Source of the DNA: a virus
Virus record (IMG/VR): IMGVR_UViG_3300043436_001048
Location: 1-28,152 of that record
Length of the DNA stretch: 28,152 bases
Direction: 5' to 3' (one strand)
The notes under the pieces: model-generated
Seen by the model: only the letters and a program-made list of their open reading frames with translations
What the model was told of the DNA's origin: nothing
Database searches by the model: none
Shown here: positions 2,502-24,645 of the stretch, piece by piece
Numbering within the stretch: the first letter of the stretch is position 1
Layout of the letters: every line of letters starts with the position of its first letter
Position numbers and translations under genes: made by a program

Positions 2502-2698
2502 TTTATCATGATTTTTAGCCGTTTTGTTTCGTCTACCAAGCCAATCAACTCATTCATCTCGTCAATGTTGATATTGTAACGTGATAGCTTTTGGTACACG
2601 GTGTTGTAGTTCATGTCATGCTTAGCGCAAAAGTCTTTCAGATTCGTTCCATTGTCGTTCAGCAACCTCATGAACTCGCGCAGTAGTTCTTTTTTCAT
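2498..2698 (-). CDS. Small HTH-like protein
   Basis: 66 residues. LNDNGTNLKDFCAKHDMNYNTVYQKLSRYNINIDEMNELI has a helix-turn-helix pattern (LKDFCAKHDMNYNTVYQKL), similar in design to the gene at 1844-2098. Probably a small DNA-binding protein. Start and stop overlap neighbours by 4 nt on both sides, consistent with translational coupling. Family not recognised beyond the fold guess. Confidence 0.65.
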   Translation of the reverse strand: MKKELLREFMRLLNDNGTNLKDFCAKHDMNYNTVYQKLSRYNINIDEMNELIGLVDETKRLKIMIK

Positions 2699-3051
2699 TT
2701 CTTTCTGTCTTTTACATTGTTCGTTCTAATGTCAACTACTTGCAAGTTTTCAAGTCGATTGTTTAAAGGATTGTTATCTATGTGGTCAACCACTAATTTT
2801 CTGTTTCCGTAACTGTGGTTTAAGAATGTAATTGCCATTAATGAATGTACACGTTTAGTATGTTTTTGAACCACACCATCGACCTTTTTGTATAGCGTTA
2901 CTTGTGGGTAATTTCGCCTTTTAACACCGCTTAAATGGTGGTTTAATATGCTTGATTTTTGATCGTTGTATATTATGCCAGACTTGCTTATTGAATACAA
3001 TCCTTCAAACCCTTTTATCGGATAAAATTCAATTTGATTATTTACTCTCAT
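2695..3051 (-). CDS. HNH homing endonuclease with NUMOD4 domain
   Basis: 118 residues from ATG 3051 (an upstream TTG is less likely). Residues 8-30 (EFYPIKGFEGLYSISKSGII) form a NUMOD4 DNA-binding motif. The HNH part follows: KRVHSLMAITFL (66-77), VVDHIDNNPLNNRLENL (88-103), with H69, D89-H90, N93 and N98. It ends after VDIRTNN without the C-terminal NUMOD1 seen in longer relatives. It overlaps the membrane-protein gene upstream by 14 nt and the HTH gene downstream by 4 nt, so it is embedded in the operon without disrupting a recognisable gene. Free-standing NUMOD4-HNH proteins are selfish mobile genes common in phages. Confidence 0.9.
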   Translation of the reverse strand: MRVNNQIEFYPIKGFEGLYSISKSGIIYNDQKSSILNHHLSGVKRRNYPQVTLYKKVDGVVQKHTKRVHSLMAITFLNHSYGNRKLVVDHIDNNPLNNRLENLQVVDIRTNNVKDRKK

Positions 3052-3244
3052 TTCGTTTTTCAATTAATCGTTCAACATCGTGTAAGGATTCGGGAATCAG
3101 AGTCTCATATATGATACTCTGTCGCATCGTTTCAACACCGCTGTCGAATCCTAAATCGTAGCCGTTATTATGTCCCGCTACATAGAACATACCACACGCA
3201 CCAATTAGTGCGAATAGGTATATCAGTTGTTTAAATCGTCTCAT
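3038..3244 (-). CDS. Small membrane-anchored protein
   Basis: 68 residues with one N-terminal hydrophobic segment (QLIYLFALIGACGMFYVAG, ~6-24) preceded by basic residues, then a polar charged tail. This predicts an inner-membrane protein with a single helix and the C-terminal part outside the cytoplasm, or an uncleaved signal peptide. The ATG overlaps the upstream stop (ATGA). Function unknown; a host-takeover or superinfection role is a guess from its early position. Confidence 0.6.
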   Translation of the reverse strand: MRRFKQLIYLFALIGACGMFYVAGHNNGYDLGFDSGVETMRQSIIYETLIPESLHDVERLIEKRNESK

Positions 3245-5655: not shown

Positions 5656-5667
5656 TAGCCTAGTTTG

Positions 5668-5740
5668 TTGCGAGGGCAGGACTCGAACCTGCGACCTTTT
5701 GGTTATGAGCCAAACGAGCTACCAACCGCTCCACCTCACG
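5668..5740 (-). tRNA. tRNA-Met(CAT), initiator type
   Basis: 73 nt fold into a full cloverleaf: acceptor CGTGAGG / CCTCGCA, D stem GAGC/GCTC, anticodon stem TTTGG/CCAAA around loop CTCATAA (anticodon CAT), variable AGGTC, T stem GCAGG/CCTGC with loop TTCGAGT, discriminator A73. Two marks of bacterial initiator tRNA are present: an unpaired C1-A72 and an A11-U24 pair in the D stem. Only two of the three G-C pairs expected at the bottom of the anticodon stem are present (the third is T-A). The 3' CCA is not encoded (CAA follows), so it must be added. It stands alone between two terminators with its own -7 element. Confidence 0.93.
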
Positions 5741-22342: not shown

Positions 22343-23547
22343 TTAATAAATATGATATTGTCCGTATCCTGCGTTTACTCCTAGCGTTTCCATTTCATGA
22401 TACCTTACAGCATCAATAGCGTGGTTAAACGTGTCAACAGGCTTTGCTAATGTGTTCCCTTGTTTATCTTTTGCCCATGTGTAATTGCGCAATTCTTTGA
22501 TTAAGTTTAGGCTATTCTTTGTAACCAAATAATCATGCCTTTGCATTACACCTATTCCGTAGTTAATTGAATCTTTGCCCTTTGTCACACCGCGAATCAT
22601 CTTACCGTAACGCTGTATTTCAGCAATAGATTTTGGCTCTGCTGAATCTGCATACACAATTACACCGTCTGGTATTTCGCGTGCAATCATATCGTTAAGC
22701 ATTCCTTTCTTGTACACCTTTTCGTTCAGTATTCGTTTTCCGTTGTAAGTGTATACCTCAATCAGTGCTGCAGGGTCATCTGAATAACCAAAGTCTAAGC
22801 CTAGTCCAATTAAACGCGCTTCATTTGGTATTGTGTCAATTAGTTGATAATTGTTAAATACAACCCCCTCTAAATTTCCGATTTCGCCTAATCCGTAAAC
22901 GCGATACCAATTATCCCAATACGCTGAAGTTTTCGCTTTCTCTTTTGCCTTTAAGATGAACTTTAACGCACTTTCAGGACAGGCTTCATTGTCTTGGTAG
23001 TTTACTATGATAAAGTCAACGTCCTCATCATGTTGCAAGTGTTCGTGAAACCAGAACTCATTGACAGGGTTCCAGTCTAGGTACACGCCTTTTTTGGTGC
23101 GTGATGCAAGCTCAGTGTACGCGTGAAATGTCATGTTGTTGCACTCATTCATGTAAAGATAGTCACGTCTTGCACCACGTAGTTTTGAATCGTTGTCCGC
23201 TGAAAAGAATTCAATCACTGACTTGTTTCCAAATGTGTATTTAAAGTCACTTGCATTCCAATGTGAATCCTGCCACCTGCCTGTTGAAATCATTATCTTT
23301 TTAAAGTCTTTCATTGCACCGCGCTTAAGGTGTGGCATTGATTCGGCAACAACGCTTATTTCAGTCGCTGGATGCTTGGCTGCTATGTGAATAAGGATAG
23401 GCAAAATGCCGAATGTTTTTCCTGCTTAATTGTTCCCCCTGCTACTTAATTCACAGGGGGATAAAAAGCAGATGTGCCACCCTGCACACCCTTCACGAAC
23501 CTTGTAAGACTTCGTATCTTTTTAATACACGTTGTTACTTTAAACAT
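22343..23547 (-). CDS. terL: Terminase large subunit, coding sequence interrupted in Walker A
   Basis: ATG 23547 overlaps the HNH stop by 8 nt. Codons 1-27 start MFKVTTCIKKIRSL and end GVQGGTSA; a 44-nt insert follows, and the protein resumes as GKTFGILPILI in another frame, giving GGTSA-GKT, a perfect Walker A. The joined product would be 386 residues. Later motifs are intact: Walker B YLYMNE, coupling motif DWNP, and nuclease acids in LDFGYSDDP, YADSAEP and NHAIDAVRY. The protein cuts and pumps DNA into the prohead at the portal. Without the first part the remaining ORF (starting TTG 23404) lacks the ATP-binding loop and could not power packaging. Either recoding, RNA removal or a mutation must explain this; the intact downstream frame argues against decay. 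Confidence 0.85.
23424..23467 (-). other. 44-nt non-coding insert in terL (bypass-like element)
   Basis: Between TCT GC (23468) and A GGA AAA lies a 44-nt segment absent from the expected Walker A coding sequence; it is bounded by a GC direct repeat. It holds a perfect 8-bp hairpin, TCCCCCTG (23461-23454) and CAGGGGGA (23441-23434), with a 12-nt loop, and an in-frame TAA (23448-23446) in that loop. The Ala codon GCT (23469-23467) before it and GCA (23425-23423) at its end could be take-off and landing codons for one tRNA-Ala, with a 41-nt gap. A purine-rich AGGGGGA lies ~8 nt before the landing codon. 44 is not a multiple of three, so reading through is impossible. Confidence 0.75.
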
Positions 23548-24088
23548 ACTGCCATTTGAATTTATATGCCGTCTTATATTTTTTCTCCTTTTTGCAACAT
23601 TTAATTATGCCAAAAGAATTAAATCCAAGTTCTCTTTTAATATCCTTTATACAATCAAAAACCTTTATAAATTCACCATTTAGATCAAGTTGCGCAACCT
23701 TCTTTGATTGTTTATTTTCAGCTCCTCTTTTCACAACAAACAAACCTGTTTGAATAGCATGTATTTTATTTTCTCTAGACGTTACCCATTCAAGATTATC
23801 AATATGATTATTTGATTTATTCCCATCTTTATGGTTAACCTCTTTTTTATTCATCGGGTTTTCTATCCAATTTTCTGCAACTAACCTATGCACTAACATG
23901 TAATAAGGCTTGCTTTCTTTTAACAACTTAATCTTTTGATACCCTTTTGAATGAGAATTAATTTTCATAATTCGTTGCATTTTAGTTTTGGGATTTTTAC
24001 TTAAACCATTACCCAAACTTTTAACATTACCCATGTTTGAAATCAAATACAGATTTTCAAAACCTTTTATCTCTTTCCATTTTTCCAT
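23540..24088 (-). CDS. HNH homing endonuclease (NUMOD4-HNH-NUMOD1)
   Basis: 182 residues from ATG 24088 (in-frame TTG two codons upstream is less likely). NUMOD4 (WKEIKGFENLYLISNMGNVKSL, 4-25), HNH (VHRLVAENWIENP at 67-79, then EVNHKDGNKSNNHIDNLEWVT at 84-103, with H68, N85-H86, N94, N98) and a NUMOD1-type helix-turn-helix (KKVAQLDLNGEFIKVFDCIKDIKRELG, 129-155). It is visibly AT- and Lys-richer than its neighbours, a sign of separate origin. It is free-standing between the small and large terminase genes, overlaps the terL start by 8 nt and carries a promoter-like element right at its start. Homing endonucleases cut DNA lacking their insertion; the target may be the adjacent terL. Confidence 0.92.
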   Translation of the reverse strand: MEKWKEIKGFENLYLISNMGNVKSLGNGLSKNPKTKMQRIMKINSHSKGYQKIKLLKESKPYYMLVHRLVAENWIENPMNKKEVNHKDGNKSNNHIDNLEWVTSRENKIHAIQTGLFVVKRGAENKQSKKVAQLDLNGEFIKVFDCIKDIKRELGFNSFGIIKCCKKEKKYKTAYKFKWQYV

Positions 24089-24134: not shown

Positions 24135-24224
24135 TCAATTCAGCCACAAATAAAAACCCCAATACGTGTTAACACTTGCATACCTTATTTGCATCAAATA
24201 GAAGTCATTGATACCGTTAGTCAT
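24135..24224 (-). CDS. Possible 29-residue ORF after the small terminase gene
   Basis: ATG 24224 overlaps the small terminase stop (ATGACTAA) and runs 29 codons to TGA 24137-24135: MTNGINDFYLMQIRYAS, then an aromatic stretch (TYWGFYLWLN). It occupies the gap between the terminase gene and the HNH insertion. It may be a small coupled gene, a remnant of the sequence displaced by the HNH insertion, or chance. Confidence 0.3.
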   Translation of the reverse strand: MTNGINDFYLMQIRYASVNTYWGFYLWLN

Positions 24225-24645
24225 CTTCTTCGGTGTCACTTTCATCGTCTGAAAATAAAGGTTGTTCGATAACGGTTTGTTCTACCTTGTCAACTAGGTT
24301 GTTCAGTCGTTGTGTGATGCTTGGGTTGTAAATTCCTGCCATGCCACCTTGAATCTGATCTGCACGTATTTCTTTCTTAATACGCGAACAGATGGACAAA
24401 AAGCGTTTATAACGTCCCTGTTGATTGCTAAAAATATGGTCAATACCTTTCGATATACCTTTTTCCCAAACAAAGCATTCAAAGCCTTCAAACGTCAATG
24501 GCTTTTCTTTTTCACGTCTTACTTCGCTCGCATCTTTTCCAACGAAATCATGCACCAAAATAGGTGTGCTTTTCACTTCTTTTTTATACTGCTGAAACAA
24601 TTCATACAGCATTTCTGGTGATTCAATTTTAGGAGGTCGTCCCAC
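24217..24645 (-). CDS. terS: Terminase small subunit
   Basis: 142 residues. It starts MGRPPKIESPEMLYELFQQYKKEV, then EKPLTFEGFECFVWEKGI, a helical FSNQQGRYKRFLSICSRIKKEIRADQI, and GGMAGIYNPSITQRLNNLVDKVEQTV before an acidic tail (SDDESDTEEDD). The GRP start, the helix-turn-helix region and the AGIYNP.I...LN.L.DK motif fit small terminases of Bacteroidota phages. It binds the packaging start site and hands DNA to the large subunit. The large subunit gene follows, but separated from it by the HNH gene. Confidence 0.8.
   Translation of the reverse strand: MGRPPKIESPEMLYELFQQYKKEVKSTPILVHDFVGKDASEVRREKEKPLTFEGFECFVWEKGISKGIDHIFSNQQGRYKRFLSICSRIKKEIRADQIQGGMAGIYNPSITQRLNNLVDKVEQTVIEQPLFSDDESDTEEDD

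Follow-up and report, generated by a model that had tools for sequence, protein, structure and literature searches.

A recurrent hairpin insert in the Walker A codons of phage terL: a probable mobile translational-bypassing element often found beside homing endonuclease genes

The interrupted terL gene

The viral record IMGVR_UViG_3300043436_001048, analysed here over a stretch of 28,152 nucleotides (nt; hereafter the window), carries on its minus strand a gene for the large terminase subunit, terL, whose Walker A codons are split by a 44-nt insert into GGTSA and GKT, after 26 codons and two bases. A gene for an HNH endonuclease stands directly before terL, and the insert follows 73 nt past its stop. 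A preliminary description of this DNA had reported both placements, and they hold exactly on re-checking the positions of HNH gene, terL and insert. terL starts inside the end of the HNH gene, an overlap of 8 nt. The features of the locus are:

23543..24088, minus strand: HNH homing endonuclease gene, I-HmuI-like (NUMOD4-HNH_3-NUMOD1), 182 amino acids; ATG at 24088, stop TAA at 23542-23540
23467..23547, minus strand: terL 5' exon, MFKVTTCIKKIRSLTRFVKGVQGGTSA, from ATG (23547-23545) to the putative take-off codon; N-termini of intact relatives match
23467..23469, minus strand: putative take-off codon GCT (Ala), from comparison of 47 distinct inserts
23424..23467, minus strand: 44-nt insert in the Walker A codons, a coding gap precisely absent from intact relatives; the 44 skipped nt count the landing codon
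23434..23461, minus strand: hairpin from folding, with arms 23461-23453 (TCCCCCTGT) and 23442-23434 (GCAGGGGGA) and loop 23452-23443
23423..23425, minus strand: putative landing codon GCA (Ala); GCN or GTN in 36/37 Ala-class inserts
22343..23422, minus strand: terL main exon, from GGA AAA ACA (GKT) to stop; PHROG terminase large subunit 3e-35, Pfam Terminase_3C 2e-15
24217..24645, minus strand: terS, the upstream neighbour, GP3_package family (Pfam PF16677, 1e-7)

The insert reads TTTTTA TCCCCCTGT GAATTAAGTA GCAGGGGGA ACAATTAAGC and folds with a minimum free energy (mfe) of -17 kcal/mol for its 44 nt. In the window, the zero frame runs into a TAA after ...AFYPPVN, the first stop at codon 7 after take-off, and in the GKT frame a TAA stands immediately 5' of the GCA codon. 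Because both frames are thus closed, neither one readthrough nor one frameshift can join the two parts of terL. The nearest isolate relatives of the window TerL are intact Flavobacterium phages, 51% identical.

We propose, with a probability of about 0.78, that programmed translational bypassing explains the insert, which would be a mobile element frequently accompanied by a homing endonuclease; ribosomes would hop over the gap, the endonuclease would cut intact terL and the insert would confer protection from it.

Recurrence of the insert and selection on terL

An exact search with the 26-nt hairpin core retrieved a second, diverged phage with the insert at the identical codon, its HNH protein being 60% and its TerL ~63-64% identical in amino acid sequence. 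Relatives of the HNH gene (L004-L011; compared loci are numbered with the prefix L) added two inserts of differing sequence, and a search with the GIY-YIG endonucleases described below contributed two further insert types. Pattern scans (CARGGNGGNACNTCNGC, 22-52 nt, GGNAARACNTWYG) returned 51 + 19 viral contigs and one contig of a Chitinophagales metagenome-assembled genome, and a version with an AGY serine codon added two more. Together these searches give ~75 contigs and 47 distinct inserts, 32-44 nt long and located at one terL site, in all three frame classes. Since the 26-nt core is shared at the same codon with a diverged phage and dozens of other inserts occupy that site, the window insert is not a chance feature; nor is it an artefact, given ~75 viral contigs sharing the site with 47 distinct inserts. 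The hosts of the insert-bearing phages probably belong to the Bacteroidota. A DNA similarity search with four queries found no isolated phage bearing the insert, and the 400 nt downstream of 49 HNH genes that are more distantly related and lie in other contexts contained no hairpin of the CCCC type. One pattern match, L235 from Eubacterium, was rejected as chance: it lacks a strong hairpin (mfe -1.3), has an open frame and is unrelated.

Downstream of the insert, TerL is under strong purifying selection, with ratios of nonsynonymous to synonymous change (dN/dS) of 0.01-0.07 among insert-bearing pairs, and each of 13 long records searched (27-37 kb) holds one terL, with no second intact copy found elsewhere in these 13. 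From these two results together it follows that TerL must be made. L192, which of the relatives sharing this insert is closest to the window (one difference in the insert), has a proportion of synonymous differences (pS) of 0.47 and a dN/dS of 0.013 in TerL against the window. The insert is itself under constraint and changes more slowly than nearby synonymous sites: between L168 and L197, 1/43 of its bases has changed, compared with changes at 11/24 exon third positions and at 50% of third positions downstream. For the HNH gene, one pair (L167/L186) gave a dN/dS of 0.095.

Mobility and the link to homing endonucleases

The window HNH protein matches Pfam NUMOD4 (9e-11), HNH_3 (4e-9) and NUMOD1 (1e-5) and the PHROG HNH endonuclease family (8e-42), and phmmer aligns its residues 3-179 with PDB 1u3e ('HNH homing endonuclease') at an E-value of 9e-16. 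The HNH core, the NUMOD modules and the full-length similarity place it among the I-HmuI-like HNH homing endonucleases.

Nine loci (L003-L011) carry the closest HNH genes found; they come from six or more metagenome samples besides the window, and at each the gene lies directly 5' of an insert-bearing terL. An endonuclease gene directly precedes terL at 25/66 assessable insert loci (19 HNH, 6 GIY-YIG-like) compared with 3/70 intact loci (Fisher p ~7e-7, a value that ignores relatedness and the different gathering of the two samples). Within the sample gathered by TerL similarity alone, the figures are 2/3 insert loci and 3/70 intact loci (p 0.011). A homing endonuclease gene thus stands beside the interrupted gene in the window and at 24 more loci.

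The distribution of the insert is patchy. On a quick TerL tree of 89 sequences with long branches, insert presence changes at least 17 times, seven of them forced by well-supported branches, and the window's insert family alone requires 11 changes. Pairwise comparison also reveals short replaced tracts. Between L218 and the intact L100, identity is 93% across 811 nt upstream, falls to 69% in the 75-nt terL 5' exon and is 92-97% right after the insert; the pairs L216/L100 and L180/L110 show a similar tract, the tracts being 67-69% identical between flanks of 92-97%. Because the replaced tract covers both, 5' exon and insert arrived jointly. We therefore find, from the patchy distribution and the replaced tracts, that the gap moves between genomes; short tracts of this kind are as expected for homing with co-conversion.

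The preliminary description had gone further and suggested HNH gene and insert as a possible homing unit. The part of this idea that stands is the recurrent arrangement, borne out by the counts above, by L003-L011 and by the replaced tracts; an obligate partnership does not stand, as 41/66 insert loci are without a recognised endonuclease. The two patterns that the same description had named as refuting its idea both occur, namely an insert without a recognised endonuclease gene (L192) and HNH genes before intact terL (L114, 58 nt before the Q codon; L092 and L097, ~200 nt). We note that both patterns are expected, because endonucleases undergo gain, fixation and loss. The close relatives of the GIY-YIG proteins form one subfamily, and all 24 are encoded immediately 5' of terL; nine of these terL genes bear an insert and 15 are intact.

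All 15 GIY-YIG loci with intact terL (L244-L248, L250-L256, L260-L262) read GKTFS and not GKTFG or GKTYG, and the serine is mostly encoded by AGY. Judged from these codons, the change may alter the target and so offer an alternative form of self-protection.

These mixed patterns are what could be expected if the bypass element spread by ordinary phage recombination and the endonucleases were independent guests favouring the site upstream of terL, as the 41/66 insert loci without a recognised endonuclease and the 15/24 GIY-YIG and three HNH loci with intact terL would suggest. We regard this as unlikely, although it deserves serious weight. For the closest HNH relatives the association is strong both ways, endonucleases of two unrelated families are found at one position, adjoining inserts of one kind, and loss of the endonuclease after fixation accounts for the remaining loci.

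Insert geometry and matched take-off and landing codons

Comparison of the inserts reveals a common geometry. In 41/43 inserts measured together the stem starts 5-6 nt past the take-off codon; stems are mostly 8-11 base pairs long, and the landing codon lies 1-8 nt beyond the stem (43 inserts). Four inserts discovered later follow the same rule. Folding is lower in energy than in dinucleotide shuffles for 45/45 inserts tested (z -5.8 to -2.3), and the inner stem pairs differ among inserts (TA, AT, CG, GC, GU) with pairing preserved.

The inserts fall into two classes, an Ala class of 37 and a Gly class of 10. In the Ala class, the codon before GGN AAR ACN is GCN in 26, GTN in 10 and ATA in one, the individual landing codons being GCA (23), GTA (9), GCT (2), GTT (1), GCG (1) and ATA (1). 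Landing on GTA could be possible with the Ala anticodon UGC via a middle G.U pair. In the Gly class, GGN follows an Ala (or Ser) codon and take-off and landing codons are both GGN in 10/10, while the codon before landing is unconstrained and never GYN (GGA, ATT, AAC, CTT, AAA, TTT, ATT, ACT, TTT, AAA). The coupling of take-off to landing codon is significant at 4e-8 by Fisher's test on inserts (37 vs 8) and at 4e-4 on families (10 vs 7), related inserts not being independent. Such coupling is a prediction of bypassing, and not of splicing.

This result bears directly on the possibility that the insert is excised from the RNA, as a minute intron or otherwise, and not skipped by the ribosome. 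Excision would restore the frame whatever the insert length, and the insert does contain a hairpin. However, 32-44 nt is far under any known self-splicing intron, splicing should be indifferent to the codon at the 3' junction, yet GCN or GTN is found there in the Ala class and not in the Gly class, and the distance of the stem is fixed relative to the codon and not to the sequence junction. We therefore consider excision improbable. A group I or group II intron was rejected, since no Rfam intron family matched at E-values up to 1 and the 44-nt insert compares with the hundreds of nucleotides expected.

Reading frames within the inserts bear on a further possibility, namely that stop readthrough, or re-initiation in the second half of the insert, yields a TerL with additional residues or with a replacement Walker A. 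Many 42-nt inserts read VVGGDNAGKT, in which GGDNAGKT or a similar sequence is a correct GxxxxGKT motif; L004 has an ATG KLVVGDDNAGKT; and 17/43 inserts keep the frame and contain just one stop. In the window, however, this route is unworkable, as TAA directly precedes GCA in the GKT frame. It is equally unworkable in eight other out-of-frame inserts, which offer no path by a single readthrough or frameshift, and in in-frame inserts with two to four stops, and L192 is without the stop, yet out of frame. The replacement motif was rejected because it suits only part of the 42-nt group, and we hold this explanation as a whole to be very unlikely.

In the insert of L004/L005 (L004 3635-3670), the ATG opens the frame MKLVVGDDNAGKT, an alternative Walker A start; in other 42-nt inserts GGDNAGKT is in frame, but after a stop. 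Of 43 inserts, 25 have a stop as the first or second codon past take-off (directly adjacent in 4/43, one codon later in 21/43), and in most inserts stops prevent ordinary decoding.

Codon choice just 5' of the insert (window 23467-23484 and homologous positions) also differs: insert-bearing terL alleles favour CAG, GGY and TCY, a preference partly fixed by the search pattern (TCN), whereas intact alleles use CAA, TCA and AGT. This preference could serve as a signal for bypassing, be left over from the endonuclease target or result from shared descent.

Proposed mechanism

On the observed anatomy, recurrence and conservation of the insert, its patchy distribution, the local replacement tracts and the link to two endonuclease families, we base the following model. 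Ribosomes translating terL would pause with peptidyl-tRNA-Ala on GCT (23469-23467) and detach, slide across the hairpin-containing gap, re-pair at GCA (23425-23423) and restart at GGA AAA ACA, which would yield an uninterrupted Walker A motif (GGTSAGKT). The gap would stay in the mRNA, as selection on TerL suggests. The adjacent HNH endonuclease would be expected to nick or cut intact terL of competing phages near the Walker A codons; repair would then copy the endonuclease, the 5' end of terL and the insert, and the insert would shield the recipient from the endonuclease. The preliminary description had explained tolerance of the insert by the hyperconserved nature of the target; this is not sufficient alone, and translational bypassing offers the best answer.

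Several observations weigh against bypassing within a homing unit: (I) ~60% of insert loci (41/66), L192 included, are without a recognised endonuclease, and one GIY-YIG clade adjoins intact terL, so the homing unit is a loose one; (II) 11 Ala-class landing codons are not GCN; (III) the signals known from phage T4 are only partly present, in that the take-off codon lies outside the stem and the stop is usually not directly adjacent; (IV) no special nascent peptide was apparent, and the basic 27-residue TerL N-terminus is alike in intact and insert-bearing genes; and (V) the counts overstate independent events because the samples are interrelated.

Two further explanations carry little weight. 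HNH genes often lie next to terminase genes and have been implicated in packaging (cited in PMC4351075), so the HNH protein could be part of the packaging motor and not a homing enzyme. This is highly improbable in view of its NUMOD4-HNH_3-NUMOD1 make-up, its full-length similarity to 1u3e and its absence from most close relatives, L192 included, with a GIY-YIG gene in its place in others. An assembly error or a decayed phage with broken terL, for which the frame disruption itself and nothing else speaks, was rejected as next to impossible on the grounds of identical or related inserts in dozens of independent metagenomes, dN/dS of 0.01-0.07 and one terL per record.

Relation to known systems

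Among phages and bacteria, long translational bypassing has for decades been well studied in a single natural case, gene 60 of phage T4, which to our knowledge is also the sole well-documented mobile bypass cassette in phages. By analogy, the best reading is that the terL insert works like the T4 mobA/gene 60 cassette (PMC5009743, PMC3014915, PMC2988022), while neither descent nor geometry makes it part of that cassette. The nearest known case is this T4 cassette, but it interrupts a topoisomerase gene and not terL, and we saw no sequence similarity. The T4 gap is 50 nt long and the gaps here 32-44 nt, with take-off on Ala or Gly. In T4 the take-off stem includes the take-off codon and the stop (GGA UAG), whereas here the stem begins 5-6 nt past the take-off codon and the stop is usually one codon further. 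The T4 mobA gene is annotated as defective and lies ~800 nt away, in contrast to the intact and directly adjacent endonuclease of the window, and unlike the T4 cassette the present arrangement involves two endonuclease families and many phages. Ribosome sliding on gene 60 is highly processive below a limit of 56 nt (PMC11194080), and all gaps described here fall under it.

T4 gene 60 has been described as unique (PMC3014915). We think it rather likely that mobile inserts in Bacteroidota phages instead rely widely on bypassing to survive, and that it is no T4 curiosity, with at least ~16 hairpin families, HNH and GIY-YIG carriers, repeated use of the terL Walker A site, take-off on Ala or Gly and even landing on GUA by a G.U wobble. 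If so, an essential gene would offer 47 natural gaps of shared geometry, from whose variation the rules governing take-off, hairpin and landing could be deduced. They would also show how a homing element can occupy a hyperconserved catalytic motif with neither intron nor intein. Gene callers would gain a searchable pattern, as such phages seem to lack an intact large terminase.

Other cases are more distant. In the mitochondria of Magnusiomyces capitatus, many short inserts (byps) are skipped in translation, and their take-off and landing codons do not always match (PMC5009743). Byps occur in many genes and are context-independent, and the text consulted describes no adjacent endonuclease; here the inserts occupy one codon position with fixed geometry. 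The terminase of Streptomyces phage Hau3 is suspected of bypassing at UUA (PMC5009743). Hau3 shares the phage terminase with the present case, but has a much shorter gap, depends on decoding of a rare UUA, is proposed to be regulatory and has no Walker A hairpin insert. A literature search on bypassing and the large terminase subunit found no description of the present arrangement apart from this suspected, different case. A 29-nt hop was reported, in a report without follow-up, for an adhesin gene of Prevotella loescheii (PMC5009743), which belongs to the Bacteroidota, as the hosts here probably do; the gene, however, is a host gene. Finally, the I-HmuI gene resides inside a group I intron (PMC2988022). 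The window HNH protein is similar to I-HmuI (PDB 1u3e) over its full length, but its gene is free-standing, with no intron family detected.

Additional window features

The window holds two more HNH genes on the minus strand (455-1039 and 2695-3063), one with Pfam HNH (PF01844) and the other with HNH_3 and a weak NUMOD4, and a tRNA-Met (CAT) gene at 5667-5740, also on the minus strand.
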